NCBI GenBank assembly: GCA_903901015.1
Contig: CAIUPH010000082.1
Location: 1-52,077 of the forward strand
Source: Candidatus Bathyarchaeota archaeon
GTDB lineage: Archaea > Thermoproteota > Bathyarchaeia > Bathyarchaeales > Bathycorpusculaceae
Direction: 5' to 3'
DNA: 52,077 bases
A program made the position numbers and the translations under genes. Shown piece after piece: positions 2,306 through 49,040 of this stretch (its first letter is position 1; every line of letters starts with the position of its first letter). The notes under the pieces are model-generated. The model did not search any database, was not told the DNA's origin, and saw only the letters and a program-made list of their open reading frames with translations.

Positions 2306-2455
2306 GCGATTAATCCAGCGTTTAATAGACATTTCGTTTATATGCCCCCTAAATTCCTAATAGATACGTTAGTTTATGCTTGCCCATCTTCACCCTCGCG
2401 AAGACAGAAAAGAAGGCTGCAAACTACTCGACATCCAAACCAAGAAGGCCAACAT

Positions 2456-2851
2456 ATGTCCGAAAAAACAAAAGACGAAAAATGCAGCAAAGAAGACGAT
2501 TACGTCACAGTAAAAATACCAAAAGAACTCTCCGAAGAAGCAGACAAACTAATCGGCAAAAAAGGGTTCCGAAGCAAGGCAGAAATCGTTCAAGAAGCAC
2601 TCAGAGAGCTACTCGACCATTACGGGGCAGACAAACACTTTCAAATGCTAAATCGCACCAGTGATGGCGTAAAAGTCAGAGACATAAAACTAGGCCAAGT
2701 AGCAGACATCAAAATCACCCCCGAAGGAATTTACTGCCCAATATGTGATGGAAGCAACTGCGAACACATCCGCTTTGCCTTAGATCAAACTGACGTAAAA
2801 AACCTTATCCGCAGGAAGAAAAAGGAAGGCTGGAAATTACCCGACGCTTGA
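2456..2851 (+). CDS. Ribbon-helix-helix DNA-binding protein with C-terminal zinc motif
   Basis: A 131-residue likely transcription regulator. Residues 15-52 (VTVKIPKELSEEADKLI, then FRSKAEIVQEALRELL) match the CopG/RHH_1 fold: a short beta strand for DNA contact and two helices for dimerisation. The C-terminal half carries CPICDGSNCEH at 94-104, a Cys-x2-Cys-x4-Cys-x-His set that may bind a metal. The start at 2456 is chosen because AGAAGG lies just upstream and the longer frame back to 2291 encodes unconserved-looking sequence. Two inverted repeats at 2250-2305 lie upstream and are candidate operator sites. Target genes are unknown; a metal- or redox-sensing role is only inference. Confidence 0.75.
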   Translation: MSEKTKDEKCSKEDDYVTVKIPKELSEEADKLIGKKGFRSKAEIVQEALRELLDHYGADKHFQMLNRTSDGVKVRDIKLGQVADIKITPEGIYCPICDGSNCEHIRFALDQTDVKNLIRRKKKEGWKLPDA

Positions 2852-3010
2852 GACAAGCGCCTGCCGCAAAACGAACAGTAAAAATAGCGCCCAATACGAG
2901 TATTATTTTGTTGCATTCTTTGGGCAAAGCAAACTCTATGTCTTCAAGCTGAGTAAACCACTCATCCGAATTTGCTCCTTTAACAGGCTTCCGCAGGGTT
3001 CTTCTTACAA

Positions 3011-3345
3011 TCAGAACAGCCGCGATTGCCCACCTCTGCTTGGAGCTGTTTGAACGCTATTTTCCGGCTTAGCTTCAGCTGCATCGTTATGCTCTTGGCT
3101 TTCTTTGGAAACTGTTATGTCCAGTTTGATTTCTTGCGCTTTCGCCTCCAGCCTGCTTATCCGCTTTTGCTGAAAGAGCAGAATAGACATAACCATGAGG
3201 TCAAGGACCTCAGGATTCGCCGCATTGCCGCCCTCCGAAGCATAACTCCTGCAAATATCCATGAGATCATCAAACGCTTCCGATCCGGCTTACGCAAAAC
3301 CTTGGCAAATCCACTATACCGACTAATTTCCGATTCCAAAGCCAT
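3011..3345 (-). pseudogene. Small conserved archaeal protein broken by a single-base deletion
   Basis: The ATG at 3345 opens a frame reading MALESEISRYSGFAKVLRKPDR. A switch of frame at about 3279-3282 is then needed to continue as AFDDLMDICRSYASEGGNAA, followed by a coiled-coil-like stretch (SILLFQQKRISRLEAK) and a variable tail ending at 3011. The paralogous fragment at 1621-1698 keeps an extra G at this site (GATCGGGAA versus GATCGGAA), so one G was lost here. The family looks like a small archaeal protein of about 100 residues with acidic and helical parts; function unknown to me. Either a recent inactivation or a sequencing/assembly error. Confidence 0.65.
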
Positions 3346-3406
3346 CCTATAAAAAAACAATGAAAAATACGTACTGATTGAGAAAGGTCATGATGTTTTA
3401 TATGCG

Positions 3407-3844
3407 ATGATATCTTTCCCAGAACTTAAATCTAAATATTACAAGCAGAAGCTTAAGCCAAAATGGTTTACGCCATATTGGGTATCCATATTCGCTTGAA
3501 CGTTAGTAATAATTGGAATTGTAATTCCAGTTTTTGGTCATCAGCCATTTGAAACAGCAATATTCTACTTAGCTATCGCCTTACTACTTGAAGGGATTGG
3601 CTTTTATGCACGAGTTAAAACGCCTTCCATGAAAACAAACAGAGTAATGTATATCGTTTTGTTTGGCGGATTCTTTGGGTGTTGGTTTTCAATTGCGGCA
3701 TGGGTATTTTTGGCTAGAATATTTGCTGAGTTCAAGGTTTATGTGCTTCTTACTTTTATTGGATGCTTTGTTCTTTGCGGGTTAATCGGCGATTCAATAG
3801 GGAAAATGAGGCACTACAAAGGCCCAGAACAGTACCAACCGTAG
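3407..3844 (+). pseudogene. Small multi-pass membrane protein interrupted by an in-frame TGA
   Basis: From an ATG at 3407 the frame encodes 30 residues (ending WFTPYWVSIFA), then TGA at 3497-3499, then continues without any stop through TLVIIGIVIPVF, several hydrophobic helices and FVLCGLIGDSIGKMRHY to the stop at 3842-3844. No ATG, GTG or TTG occurs between the TGA and the ATG at 3629, so the second and third helices are orphaned if translation stops. The TGA falls inside a membrane helix where Trp (TGG) would fit. A pseudogene or base error is the simplest reading; the intact tail 3629-3844 (71 residues, two or three helices) could still be made. Confidence 0.5.
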
Positions 3845-4003
3845 GGAACTTCAGTCGTGCGCACAAATCAACACGTGCCGACAGCCTAATTTCACTTTTT
3901 GCGCCTAAAACCAACGCAAAATCGCAAATTTAACCATACAAAAACGGTAATAGAGTGAAGGCTTTTTATGCTCAAACCAACAAATATGTAATAGGTTAAA
4001 TTC

Positions 4004-12602: not shown

Positions 12603-12868
12603 CATTTTTATGCCCAGAGAGTCTAAACTGAATGCCTATTAAACGTTACTAGAGTCCGCAGTATAAAAAAACTTTGGGATGCGGCGTAGCACAAAGCAAA
12701 ACAGGAAAAGAAGAAAAAATCGCCCCCTAACACGTAAACAGCATAAAATAACGTCGACTAAACATGCTGAACTAAAGAGCACACGTTTATTATCGAAATA
12801 ACCCTCCCTACCAATTTGGTTCTTTTTTGCCTTTGCCCGAATTTTACCATGCTAATGGCTTAGAAGAA
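12603..12868. other. Intergenic stretch without a recognisable gene
   Basis: Together with 12443-12602 this leaves about 500 bp between rpoB and the next gene. No coding frame, tRNA-like T-arm (GTTCRAATC) or hairpin could be supported. A copy of the 60-nt dispersed repeat begins at its right edge. Confidence 0.4.
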
Positions 12869-12928
12869 CGCCAATACCGACCTACCCCTTAGGTTTCTGC
12901 AATGAGTTTCTAATAGGATCCAAATATG
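12869..12928 (-). repeat. 60-nt dispersed repeat, copy 1
   Basis: Read leftward it runs from CATATTTGGATCCTA through a 27-nt core containing GCAGAAACCTAAGGGGTAGG to TGGCG. It matches copy 3 (28700-28759) at 53 of 60 positions without gaps. It begins 16 nt past the stop codon of the leftward gene at 12945 and is oriented with that gene. Inside it, ACCTA-AGGGG-TAGGT can form a five-base-pair hairpin with a five-base loop, and GGATCC is a palindrome. Confidence 0.85.
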
Positions 12929-12944
12929 CGCAAACAGATGGTTA

Positions 12945-13265
12945 CTAATACCTAGCGATTTTGTAGTGGTTCCTTCCCAGTTGCCGCTGCCTCTTCTCCT
13001 GAGCCTCAGTCAACTGCGTTTTACCCGTCTTAACCTCATAAGTTGTGGGTTCGCCAACTTTGTTCCCGAAGAAATCGCGTTTCTGAACCACAAAGTCGCC
13101 GTTTTCACGGATTTTTTTGCAGTCATGTCCCTGCATGGCTTGGTCAAACGCGAAGCGGTCTTTGGCAATGTTGCCTTTAGCGCGGTTGGTGGATAGGTTG
13201 AATCTTTTTGAAACTTTGCCCGATTTTAAGGGGTCATCCTTTGAAATTCTTTTAACCAACTGCAC
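12945..13265 (-). CDS. Small protein with a possible PD-(D/E)xK nuclease core
   Basis: A 106-residue basic protein. The N-terminal half is rich in Lys and Arg; the C-terminal half has GDFVVQKRDFFGN (Asp57), then YEVKTGKTQLTEAQ (Glu77-Val-Lys79) and a final RQLGRNHYKIARY. The Asp-x19-Glu-x-Lys arrangement followed by a Gln-containing helix resembles the core of restriction-endonuclease-like folds such as small Holliday-junction or Vsr-type nucleases. Active-site Glu on the first helix is not certain. No neighbour in an operon supports the call; the 60-nt repeat lies directly 3'. Function is therefore a suggestion, not an assignment. Confidence 0.55.
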   Translation of the reverse strand: MQLVKRISKDDPLKSGKVSKRFNLSTNRAKGNIAKDRFAFDQAMQGHDCKKIRENGDFVVQKRDFFGNKVGEPTTYEVKTGKTQLTEAQEKRQRQLGRNHYKIARY

Positions 13266-28078: not shown

Positions 28079-28615
28079 GTGTCTGTTAATACCCAACAAC
28101 AGGCGGTCACTATGGCAATGGAAGAGTTGAACATGCAAATCTACGGCTGCAAGAAATGCCGCTTGTGGAAGGACGCTAAACACGTCGTGCCAGGCGAAGG
28201 ACCCCTAAACGCCAAGGTCATGTTTGTGGGACAGAACCCCGGGGCAGACGAAGACGAGTCGGGCAGACCGTTTGTGGGCAGAGCAGGAAAATACCTAACT
28301 AAAACCCTCGCTGAATTCGGCATAAAACGCGAAGACATCTACATAACCAACATTGTCAAGCATATTTCGCCGAAAAACCGCGCGCCGTACCCAGATGAAC
28401 TTGCATCTTGCTTGCCGTATGTGACTGCCCAAATCAAATTTATCCAACCAAAAATCATCGTGCTTCTGGGCGCCTCTGCAAAGGAAACTCCGAGGGTAGA
28501 CGGCATTGAATACATCCAAGTCATTCATCCTTCGGCGGCGATGCGGTTCACGCAGATGCGACTAAAATTCAGGGTGCAAATCGCTGAATTGGCAAAGAGA
28601 ATCCAGCAAAACTAA
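28079..28615 (+). CDS. Uracil-DNA glycosylase, family 4-like, with an altered Fe-S ligand
   Basis: A 178-residue UDG-superfamily base-excision enzyme. It follows family 4: YGCKKCRLW (Cys24, Cys27), GEGPLNAKVMFVGQNPG, DESGRPFVGRAGKYL, IYITNIVKH, PKNRAPYPDELASC (Cys111) and IHPSAAM. Family 4 enzymes bind a 4Fe-4S cluster through four cysteines; here the third ligand, in the usual VKCRPP context, is His95. The motif GE(A/G)PG is GQNPG. The region before the catalytic His is shorter than in Thermus UDGa. It may still be active, but lesion specificity is unclear. The start may be GTG at 28079 or ATG at 28112. Two tandem copies of the 60-nt repeat follow its stop. Confidence 0.85.
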   Translation: MSVNTQQQAVTMAMEELNMQIYGCKKCRLWKDAKHVVPGEGPLNAKVMFVGQNPGADEDESGRPFVGRAGKYLTKTLAEFGIKREDIYITNIVKHISPKNRAPYPDELASCLPYVTAQIKFIQPKIIVLLGASAKETPRVDGIEYIQVIHPSAAMRFTQMRLKFRVQIAELAKRIQQN

Positions 28616-28636
28616 ACCGTTTTTGGATTACACAAG

Positions 28637-28694
28637 CATATTTGGATCCTATTAGTGGTTCTATGTTGAAACTATAGGAGGGTAGGCTGCGTTC
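28637..28694 (+). repeat. 60-nt dispersed repeat, copy 2 (diverged)
   Basis: It begins with the same CATATTTGGATCCTATTAG as copy 1, then diverges, regaining similarity as TTGAAACTATAGGAGGGTAGGCTG where copies 1 and 3 have GCAGAAACCTAAGGGGTAGG. Two small indels are needed. It starts 21 nt after the stop of the glycosylase gene and 63 nt before copy 3. Confidence 0.7.
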
Positions 28695-28699
28695 ACGAA

Positions 28700-28759
28700 C
28701 ATATTTGGATCCTAATATCATATCATTGCAGAAACCTAAGGGGTAGGTCGCTAATGGCG
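28700..28759 (+). repeat. 60-nt dispersed repeat, copy 3
   Basis: Gapless match to copy 1 (12869-12928, opposite strand) at 53 of 60 positions, including an unbroken 27-nt core. It is arranged head-to-tail with copy 2. Like copy 1 it sits in 3' intergenic sequence, here between convergent genes. Confidence 0.85.
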
Positions 28760-28785
28760 ATTCTTAATGCCATTGAATGGTGGGA

Positions 28786-29400
28786 TTACTTTATGGGTTG
28801 CCTTATGACCGTTTTCAGTTTTTCTGGTGCCGTTGTAGCGGGGTTGTTTAAGTAGATTTCATGGTGCTTTCCGCTCAGTGTGTGTCCGCTGCTTTGGATT
28901 TGCCCGTGGATTTTCTGTATGGTTGTTACTTCAGCTGAAAAGGGTCCAACATACATTATTTGGGCTGCTGCGCCTTCTTTGAAGCTTTCAAACCGCACTT
29001 TGGATAATGCAGCGGGATTTTTTTTCTTCTTCACTGCTTCAACCGCCATCTTGAAGTCTTCAGCTGCGACATATTTGGGCTGCATAATCATGGCGGTCCA
29101 TTTCCATCCGTCTTTTTTGTCCGCGTCAAACTTTGTCATGTCGTCCATCCACCATAAGCCCTCAAGTGGCATAACCGCGTAGTCGATGCCTTTGCTTTTT
29201 TTCACCATGAATTTGAGAGTGTAAGCAATACTGAATAACGCTTCAATTGCCGCGCTGTACTGCGGTGATGTTGGTGCCCCCTCTCCGTCGACCAAAAGGA
29301 AGTTCATGTCTGGAACATCCACAACCGACACTTCTTCGGATGAAGGATTATAGAGGTTCTTGAGTTCTTTCTTTAAATCAATTTTATCCATTAAACCCAA
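28786..29400 (-). CDS. GyrI-like small-molecule-binding domain protein
   Basis: A 204-residue protein of the GyrI-like/SOUL-type effector-binding fold. KIDLKKELKNLYNPSSEEVSVVDVP leads to MNFLLVDGEGAPTS, a segment highly characteristic of the stand-alone GyrI-like group; YAVMPLEGLWWMDD and EIYLNNPATTAPEKLKTVIRQPI close the second repeat. Relatives act as effector domains of regulators or as hydrolases of small toxic compounds. There is no DNA-binding domain. It is convergent with the glycosylase across the repeat-bearing gap. Confidence 0.85.
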   Translation of the reverse strand: MGLMDKIDLKKELKNLYNPSSEEVSVVDVPDMNFLLVDGEGAPTSPQYSAAIEALFSIAYTLKFMVKKSKGIDYAVMPLEGLWWMDDMTKFDADKKDGWKWTAMIMQPKYVAAEDFKMAVEAVKKKKNPAALSKVRFESFKEGAAAQIMYVGPFSAEVTTIQKIHGQIQSSGHTLSGKHHEIYLNNPATTAPEKLKTVIRQPIK

Positions 29401-48320: not shown

Positions 48321-48869
48321 TCACATATACGCTCGCAGTACATTGCTTTTCTGCAACAGGTAAAGTATGAATCCGCTTATTACCAGTTCGGGCAATATGT
48401 AACTGCCATTGTAGACTGCTGAGTAAACAAACGGGTTTAGGGTTGGAGCTTCTATTGGTGCCCAGTAAACTACGCCTGCAATAAAATGCATAACGAACCG
48501 CCCAGAAATCCCCACAGCTGCACCTGCCACAGGATACTTTTGGAATAGCCCCGCTACGCCTAGAACGCCAAAAGCTAATGGATAATCAAGCAACAACTGC
48601 ACAGGATTAATCACATAGGGCAGCAGGCCAAGTTGAATAAATCCGTACAAAACGCCTGCAGCGATGCCTACTTTGGGTCCTCTTCTGAGGGCTAACCACA
48701 AAATCGGCACCATAGAAGCAGCAGTGATTGAGCCGCCCTGAGGCAAAGTGTATACGACAATTAAACTTAATGCGGTTGCCAACGCAACAAAAACCGCGGT
48801 TTCAGCTAAAACTTTAGGGTTTCTAAAGGAATTTGGGTTCTTATATTCACTTGTATAGGTAGTATTCAC
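48321..48869 (-). CDS. thiT: ThiT-like thiamine transporter (ECF substrate-binding protein)
   Basis: A 182-residue membrane protein with about six hydrophobic helices of the ECF S-component type. VFVALATALSLIVVYTLPQGGSITAASMVPILWLALRRG (in pieces) has the conserved GGSIT / PI-x-W features of ThiT, with aromatic residues (YWAPIEAPTL) in the binding region. ThiT binds thiamine and docks on an energising ECF module encoded elsewhere. The GTG start at 48869 is 9 nt past a TPP riboswitch whose 3' end contains GGAGGG, used as ribosome site. Confidence 0.9.
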   Translation of the reverse strand: MNTTYTSEYKNPNSFRNPKVLAETAVFVALATALSLIVVYTLPQGGSITAASMVPILWLALRRGPKVGIAAGVLYGFIQLGLLPYVINPVQLLLDYPLAFGVLGVAGLFQKYPVAGAAVGISGRFVMHFIAGVVYWAPIEAPTLNPFVYSAVYNGSYILPELVISGFILYLLQKSNVLRAYM

Positions 48870-48878
48870 TTATGTTTT

Positions 48879-48965
48879 CCCTCCGCCAGTATTACCTGGT
48901 TCAGGTTCCTAAGGGTCGACAGCAAATCAGCCGTCCTCTCAGCCAGGTCACTTTCCCAGCTCCCC
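48879..48965 (-). promoter_or_regulatory. TPP (THI-box) riboswitch
   Basis: Read leftward, the strand holds all hallmark blocks of the TPP aptamer: GGGGAGCTGG, CTGAGAGGACGG, ACCCTTAGGAACCTGAACC, GGTAATACTGGCGGAGGGAA (each block under the 20-base limit). The closing stem P1 can form from TTCTT (just 5' of GGGGAGC) and GGGAA. The 3' strand contains GGAGGG about 9 nt before the GTG of thiT, so ligand binding would hide the ribosome site. Known TPP aptamers all share these pieces; the identification is close to certain. Confidence 0.95.
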
Positions 48966-49040
48966 AAGAACTGAAAAGGAAATCTCGCTTGGTGCATATT
49001 AGCTTTGCTTTGCGGTTGTTGGTAAGTTTTCGTTTGTGTG

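Follow-up and report, generated by a model that had tools for sequence, protein, structure and literature searches.

The window, a stretch of 52,077 nucleotides from a 2.05 Mb Bathyarchaeia MAG of 117 contigs (its own genome, G000), contains three copies of a short repeat. The first stands behind a short open reading frame and approximately 400 nt 5' of rpoB (12437-9072, minus strand; Pfam), and the second and third lie head-to-tail as a single array, with a uracil-DNA glycosylase gene on one side and a GyrI-like gene, convergent to it, on the other (Table 1). No tRNA genes were found in the window, and a TPP riboswitch located elsewhere in it (48860-48976, minus strand) scores 54.4 bits, just above the Rfam gathering score of 54.3.

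The original prediction described a 60-nt sequence at 12869-12928 (minus strand), 28637-28694 and 28700-28759 (both plus strand), and all three copies are present at these positions; copies 1 and 3 are identical at 53/60 sites, and copies 1 and 2 begin 16 and 21 nt after stop codons, as it had claimed. Of the two parts said to be invariant, CATATTTGGATCCTA is exact in all three copies and the core GAAACCTAAGGGGTAGGTCG, for which dinucleotide shuffles give 0 expected matches, has a perfect match in copies 1 and 3. In these two copies the proposed ACCTA/TAGGT hairpin can pair, whereas across the family it is not kept, and many members read ACTATAGAGGGGTAGGT or ACGATAGAGGGGTAGGT. The observation is confirmed as real, but its scale was far too small. 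The conserved element is longer than 60 nt, reaching ~92 nt in its own genome and ~140 nt in relatives; copy 1 extends from a 5' end at 12929 through a 3' module, TATTGGC...GCCATTA, to ~12838.

Table 1. Coordinates of the repeat copies, their parts and neighbours in the window, and of related features in other contigs and genomes.
Feature	Position	Strand	Evidence or remark
Copy 1, complete single element	12838..12929	-	Best R1 family profile match, 12838-12928, E=8.6e-24
Copy 2, first (internal) unit of two-unit array, ends ...GGGTAGGCTGCGTTCACGA	28636..28699	+	R1 28637-28686, E=4.5e-8; nhmmer
Copy 3, second (terminal) unit with 3' palindrome module CTAATGGC...GCCATTG	28700..28789	+	R1 28700-28789, E=3.7e-19
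Conserved 5' box CATATTTGGATCCTA	28637..28651	+	GGATCC inside is the seat of a ~120-bp MITE in other copies
Uracil-DNA glycosylase superfamily gene (PF03167)	28079..28615	+	Pfam; stop 21 nt before copy 2
Convergent GyrI-like domain gene (PF06445)	28786..29400	-	Pfam; stop adjoins end of copy 3
ORF, 106 aa, without Pfam match	12945..13265	-	Stop 16 nt before copy 1
MITE M copies	G000 C16:3450-3582, C114:26207-26338, C66:49278-49409 and others		L176-L186
3'-extended copies in G014/G029			L288, L289, L292-L294, L296, L297, L299-L301, L303, L306

Each unit of ~62 nt opens with CACGAAC or CACCAGC, followed by TATTTGG, A(T/G), CCTAATAG and a variable block of 6-8 nt; after this block come ATTGCAG, TATGTTG or TATGCAC with AAAC, then CTATAGGGG, CGATAGAGGGG or CCTAAGGGG, and finally TAGGTC. 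Terminal units carry an added GGTATTGGC-loop-GCCATTAGCATGTTGAAAATCAGTGCTTAAAATAAGG. Within arrays an internal unit closes with ...CTGCGTTCACGA or ...CTATGCGCCACGA, and units recur every ~62-64 nt; some copies have an additional GCAAATCACTAAGGGGG. Most loci in the window's own genome are single (59 of 83), with 22 double and 2 triple, and the units of an array run head-to-tail and do not alternate in orientation. Short palindromic boxes are conserved (TATTTGG-n2-CCTAATA and TATTGGC-loop-GCCATTA), but by inspection there are no terminal inverted repeats, the 5' end (CACGAACATATTTGG) and the 3' end (ATGTTGAAAATCAGTGCTTAAAATAAGG) being unrelated. Copies in G014 and G029 frequently extend 40 nt further 3', and in these two genomes the extension holds a strongly conserved, nearly invariant TATA-like stretch, CTTTATATAGGGGGATAGGGTCTATGGCAGAGCAACAAAC, which could be a promoter; in the window's genome the extension is degenerate. 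In L288 and L299, CTATATATAGGGGGGCTATAGAAAAAA comes after the TATA-like stretch. Judged visually, the 3' part follows the same plan as the unit (palindrome, ATGTTGAAA, TATA-GGGG, TAGG), which would make the full element a composite of two or three diverged units.

A nucleotide search of its own genome returned 53 matches, and a sequence profile built from 35 copies returned 124 at E<=1 and ~113 at E<=0.01, in 83 loci; the longest exact stretch seen in common with copy 1 is 38 nt. Among 60 relatives examined, several congeneric species have the repeat in abundance, as does one other genus (30 hits); in others it is sparse, and about half of the genus lacks it. A search of 84,980 GTDB species genomes with the exact core pattern returned 31 loci, every one in a genome named Candidatus Bathyarchaeota, and no match to the repeat was found in IMG/VR viral contigs. 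The family is restricted to related Bathyarchaeia, at high copy number in some species and missing from others. Five G009 loci (L058, L158, L164, L170, L174) hold a diverged sister form with other 3' modules, for example CCTATAGAGGGGGTACC, which suggests further subfamilies in the genus. Literature searches found no published work on such repeats in Bathyarchaeia, and to our knowledge few repeat families have been well described in uncultured archaea.

Gene context in its own genome was called with a home-made hexamer gene finder. By this measure 82/83 loci are intergenic, 26 between convergent and 8 between divergent genes, and between co-directional genes the copies are split evenly, 20 on the strand of the genes and 20 on the other. 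The sister species G013 (~81% coding) was covered over 800 kb; there 45/46 clusters are intergenic and convergent spacers are over-represented (16 convergent versus 11 divergent clusters, against 79 and 142 such spacers; p=0.02), with 6 co-directional cases on the same strand and 12 on the opposite one. The gene 3' bias proposed as a check is thus present as an excess of convergent pairs, yet without a strand rule; set against the expectation of no further copies or of random placement and orientation, copies are many and their placement is non-random, but their orientation is random. One locus of its own genome (L105, C12:600-6200) has a 16S rRNA gene (~2415-3908, minus strand) between element copies of opposite orientation.

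The position of copies 1 and 2 directly behind stop codons had led to the proposal of a transcribed 3'-UTR element or a processed small RNA. RNAalifold predicted no base pair in 35 copies; in the two visible palindromes, pair counts are at chance level, covariation does not exceed that of shuffles, and T.T mismatches are conserved. Rfam matched nothing in the window apart from the riboswitch, and gave no credible match for four full-length relatives. Because the strand is random between co-directional genes (20/20 and 6/12) and base pairs are not conserved, we set aside both RNA readings, which are almost certainly wrong. The third suggestion, a miniature mobile element, comes nearest to the dispersed, intergenic copies and their patchy number, and to this extent the interpretation was partly supported.

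The repeat is itself the seat of a mobile element. A ~120-bp MITE-like sequence, M, with inverted ends GAGGGGTGTGCA...TGCACAGGGCTC, has 17 nearly complete occurrences in the window's own genome; it is flanked by RGATCY-like duplications, and 18/18 copies inspected (two of them partial) abut the repeat at GGATCC in the 5' box. M was not found in the repeat loci examined from other genomes. Insertion sequences of bacteria are known to target REP repeats (PMC1525189; ISPpu9, PMC8450116); like them M inserts at a repeat, but its target is an archaeal family, entered at the palindrome GGATCC of the 5' box. M is a second-order parasite, confined to another repeat. Two loci, L031 and L005 (G000 C46 and C31), have a tRNA-like 3' end, a MITE-end remnant and a terminal element unit in common, near related ~275-aa proteins, apparently as a duplicated block.

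Transposition of M in trans in this genome lends some credit to the view that the repeat too is a classical non-autonomous element of MITE or REP type, mobilised by a transposase in trans, with synteny breaks as an ordinary side effect and shared sites partly the product of repeated insertion into preferred intergenic targets. High copy number that is patchy within one genus, and intergenic, 3'-end placement, are consistent with it, as is a copy on C98 whose site is empty in G013 and which has a candidate 11-nt direct repeat, ATAGAAAAACC, on both sides, a pattern that a transposase acting in trans could leave on insertion. This was the one candidate duplication among two G013 empty sites examined; in an empty-site comparison of G007 (L197) with the window at 18.2-19.6 kb, the spacer was not alignable. 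Against mobility of this kind stand the lack of terminal inverted repeats and the flanking direct repeats, which over 83 loci show no excess over shuffled pairing. Furthermore, no gene or protein family was found to recur beside the copies, recombinase genes included. The PF01797 Y1 (RAYT) transposase is absent from five high-copy genomes (G007, G013, G014, G019 and G023), for which reason a RAYT/IS200 transposase was rejected as the partner; the Y1 gene of the window's own genome has no repeat nearby. We regard the mobile-element explanation as possible but unlikely.

Comparison with sister genomes bears on the age of the copies. Our main comparison was between the window's own genome and the 800 kb of G013, at ~80% nucleotide identity, with simple scripts for the synteny rules. 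In the spacer between the uracil-DNA glycosylase and GyrI-like genes, G013 and G023 have the element in the same orientation, as one unit where the window has two, within a surrounding spacer that is no longer alignable. More generally, 32/55 element-facing gene sides with an orthologue in G013 still face an element there, against 13/105 control sides. Orientation to the neighbouring gene is kept at shared flanks in 32/32 cases, among them 22/22 from broken pairs (p=5e-7), which speaks against re-insertion at preferred targets.

Gene order is also disrupted at the repeat, more often than across similar spacers without it. Neighbouring pairs with an element between them, looked up in G013, are broken in 28 cases and conserved in 9 (28/37), as against 12 broken and 22 conserved (12/34) for element-free control pairs spaced 50 bp or more apart (p=8e-4); stratified by co-directionality and by gap net of the element, breakage has an OR of 5.9 (p=7e-4). 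Where both orthologues were found, 9 element pairs are apart and 9 together, versus 1 and 22 for controls (p=0.001). The excess weakens to suggestive (p=0.08-0.09) when only control gaps of 100 bp or more are admitted. In 5/9 'apart' pairs both flanks, now separated, still have an element in G013. Three elements of G013 (C8:3281, C8:36798 and C8:92979) each join the flanks of two different elements from the window's own genome. Had the break fallen beside the element, one flank alone would have kept it; its presence on both sides, together with the three joints, thus points to exchange within the element. When loci of other genomes were set against G013, the counts were 14/8 versus 18/21 (p=0.29), in the same direction but underpowered, with orientation kept in 14/16. 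The main breakpoint result comes from a single species pair and all of the genomes are MAGs; assembly errors at repeats are nevertheless unlikely, since the element is short and its copies diverged.

Copies retained in place have not retained their individual sequences. Mean identity is 0.69 within the window's own genome, 0.76 within G013 and 0.68 between the two, and positional orthologues are no closer to one another than random copies are (percentile 0.47-0.52 on the side of the orthologous flank). Linkage between variable positions has an r2 of 0.34 for neighbours, is near background by ~10 nt and falls to ~0.03 beyond 15 nt; in the window's own genome 96-100% of more distant site pairs show all four combinations. 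From these alignments, ectopic exchange with short tracts would best explain both the loss of linkage and the missing similarity of orthologues, although fast independent drift under a fixed motif or site-specific constraint could look similar.

The latter possibility leads to a regulatory or structural DNA element, such as a promoter with a TATA-like box, a boundary or a nucleoid-protein site, kept by selection while each copy evolves alone. Fixed positions that stay strongly conserved where flanks can no longer be aligned would be expected of it, as would the nearly invariant TATA-like stretch of the G014 and G029 extension, but the strand is random relative to genes, many related species do without the repeat, and the extension is degenerate in the window's genome. 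Nor does such a role by itself explain how one element comes to join two different pairs of flanks, and we think it rather improbable. Still less weight can be given to site-specific recombination, in which a dedicated recombinase would recognise the repeat and shuffle the chromosome. It would account for exchange that is in register and keeps orientation even though the copies have low overall identity, for the conserved short palindromic boxes and for the enrichment of breakpoints; however, no recombinase gene is linked to the copies, and linkage is lost everywhere and not at a single sharp point.

We therefore favour, as the probable explanation, an old REP/BIME-like intergenic family that is homogenised by ectopic exchange and acts as an in-register crossover site. 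The copies would be old and mostly inherited vertically while exchanging sequence ectopically; non-crossover exchange would homogenise them inside each genome, as concerted evolution, and crossovers between copies, in register and in the same orientation, would invert, delete or translocate segments of the chromosome. Purifying selection, acting against copies that strike genes or promoters, presumably keeps the family intergenic, with some retained benefit or ongoing homing perhaps also helping to hold them between genes. Against this model the copies are only ~69% identical on average, and such identity makes a poor substrate for ordinary homologous recombination.

Crossovers between dispersed copies are known to reorder the chromosome at rrn operons and IS elements. 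The same is proposed for the bathyarchaeal repeat, although the substrates here, at ~100 bp and ~69% mean identity, fall far below those usual for homologous recombination. With the REP/BIME repeats and their RAYT transposases (PMC2817692, PMC3116915) the family has in common its short length, more than 100 copies, extragenic position, palindromic boxes, composite arrays of diverged units and use as a target by other insertion elements. It differs in being archaeal, in its ~62-nt unit and head-to-tail, non-alternating arrays, in showing no clear sign of a stable conserved hairpin, and in the lack of a Y1/RAYT gene from several high-copy genomes. The MITEs of archaea and bacteria (reviewed in PMC10969869) are likewise small, non-coding, intergenic, numerous and patchy between relatives, but the repeat has neither terminal inverted repeats nor an overall target duplication signal, and is retained at orthologous sites across species.

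Taken together, the comparisons suggest that the copies are long-lived in place, would lose their individual sequence identity and may serve as crossover points of the chromosome. That a putative dedicated archaeal recombination system exchanges and homogenises dispersed copies of ~100 bp and low identity is a long shot; if true, such a system would continually reshuffle gene order in one Bathyarchaeia lineage. In practical terms, a difference in gene order between two such MAGs is not necessarily an assembly error. The short, diverged repeats, numerous and placed at orthologous sites of sister species, constitute a natural experiment, in which gene order seems to break at the repeat sites and the sequences seem to evolve in concert, and through which the manner in which archaea recombine short diverged repeats, and the drivers of gene-order turnover in Bathyarchaeia, may be tested from sequence alone.
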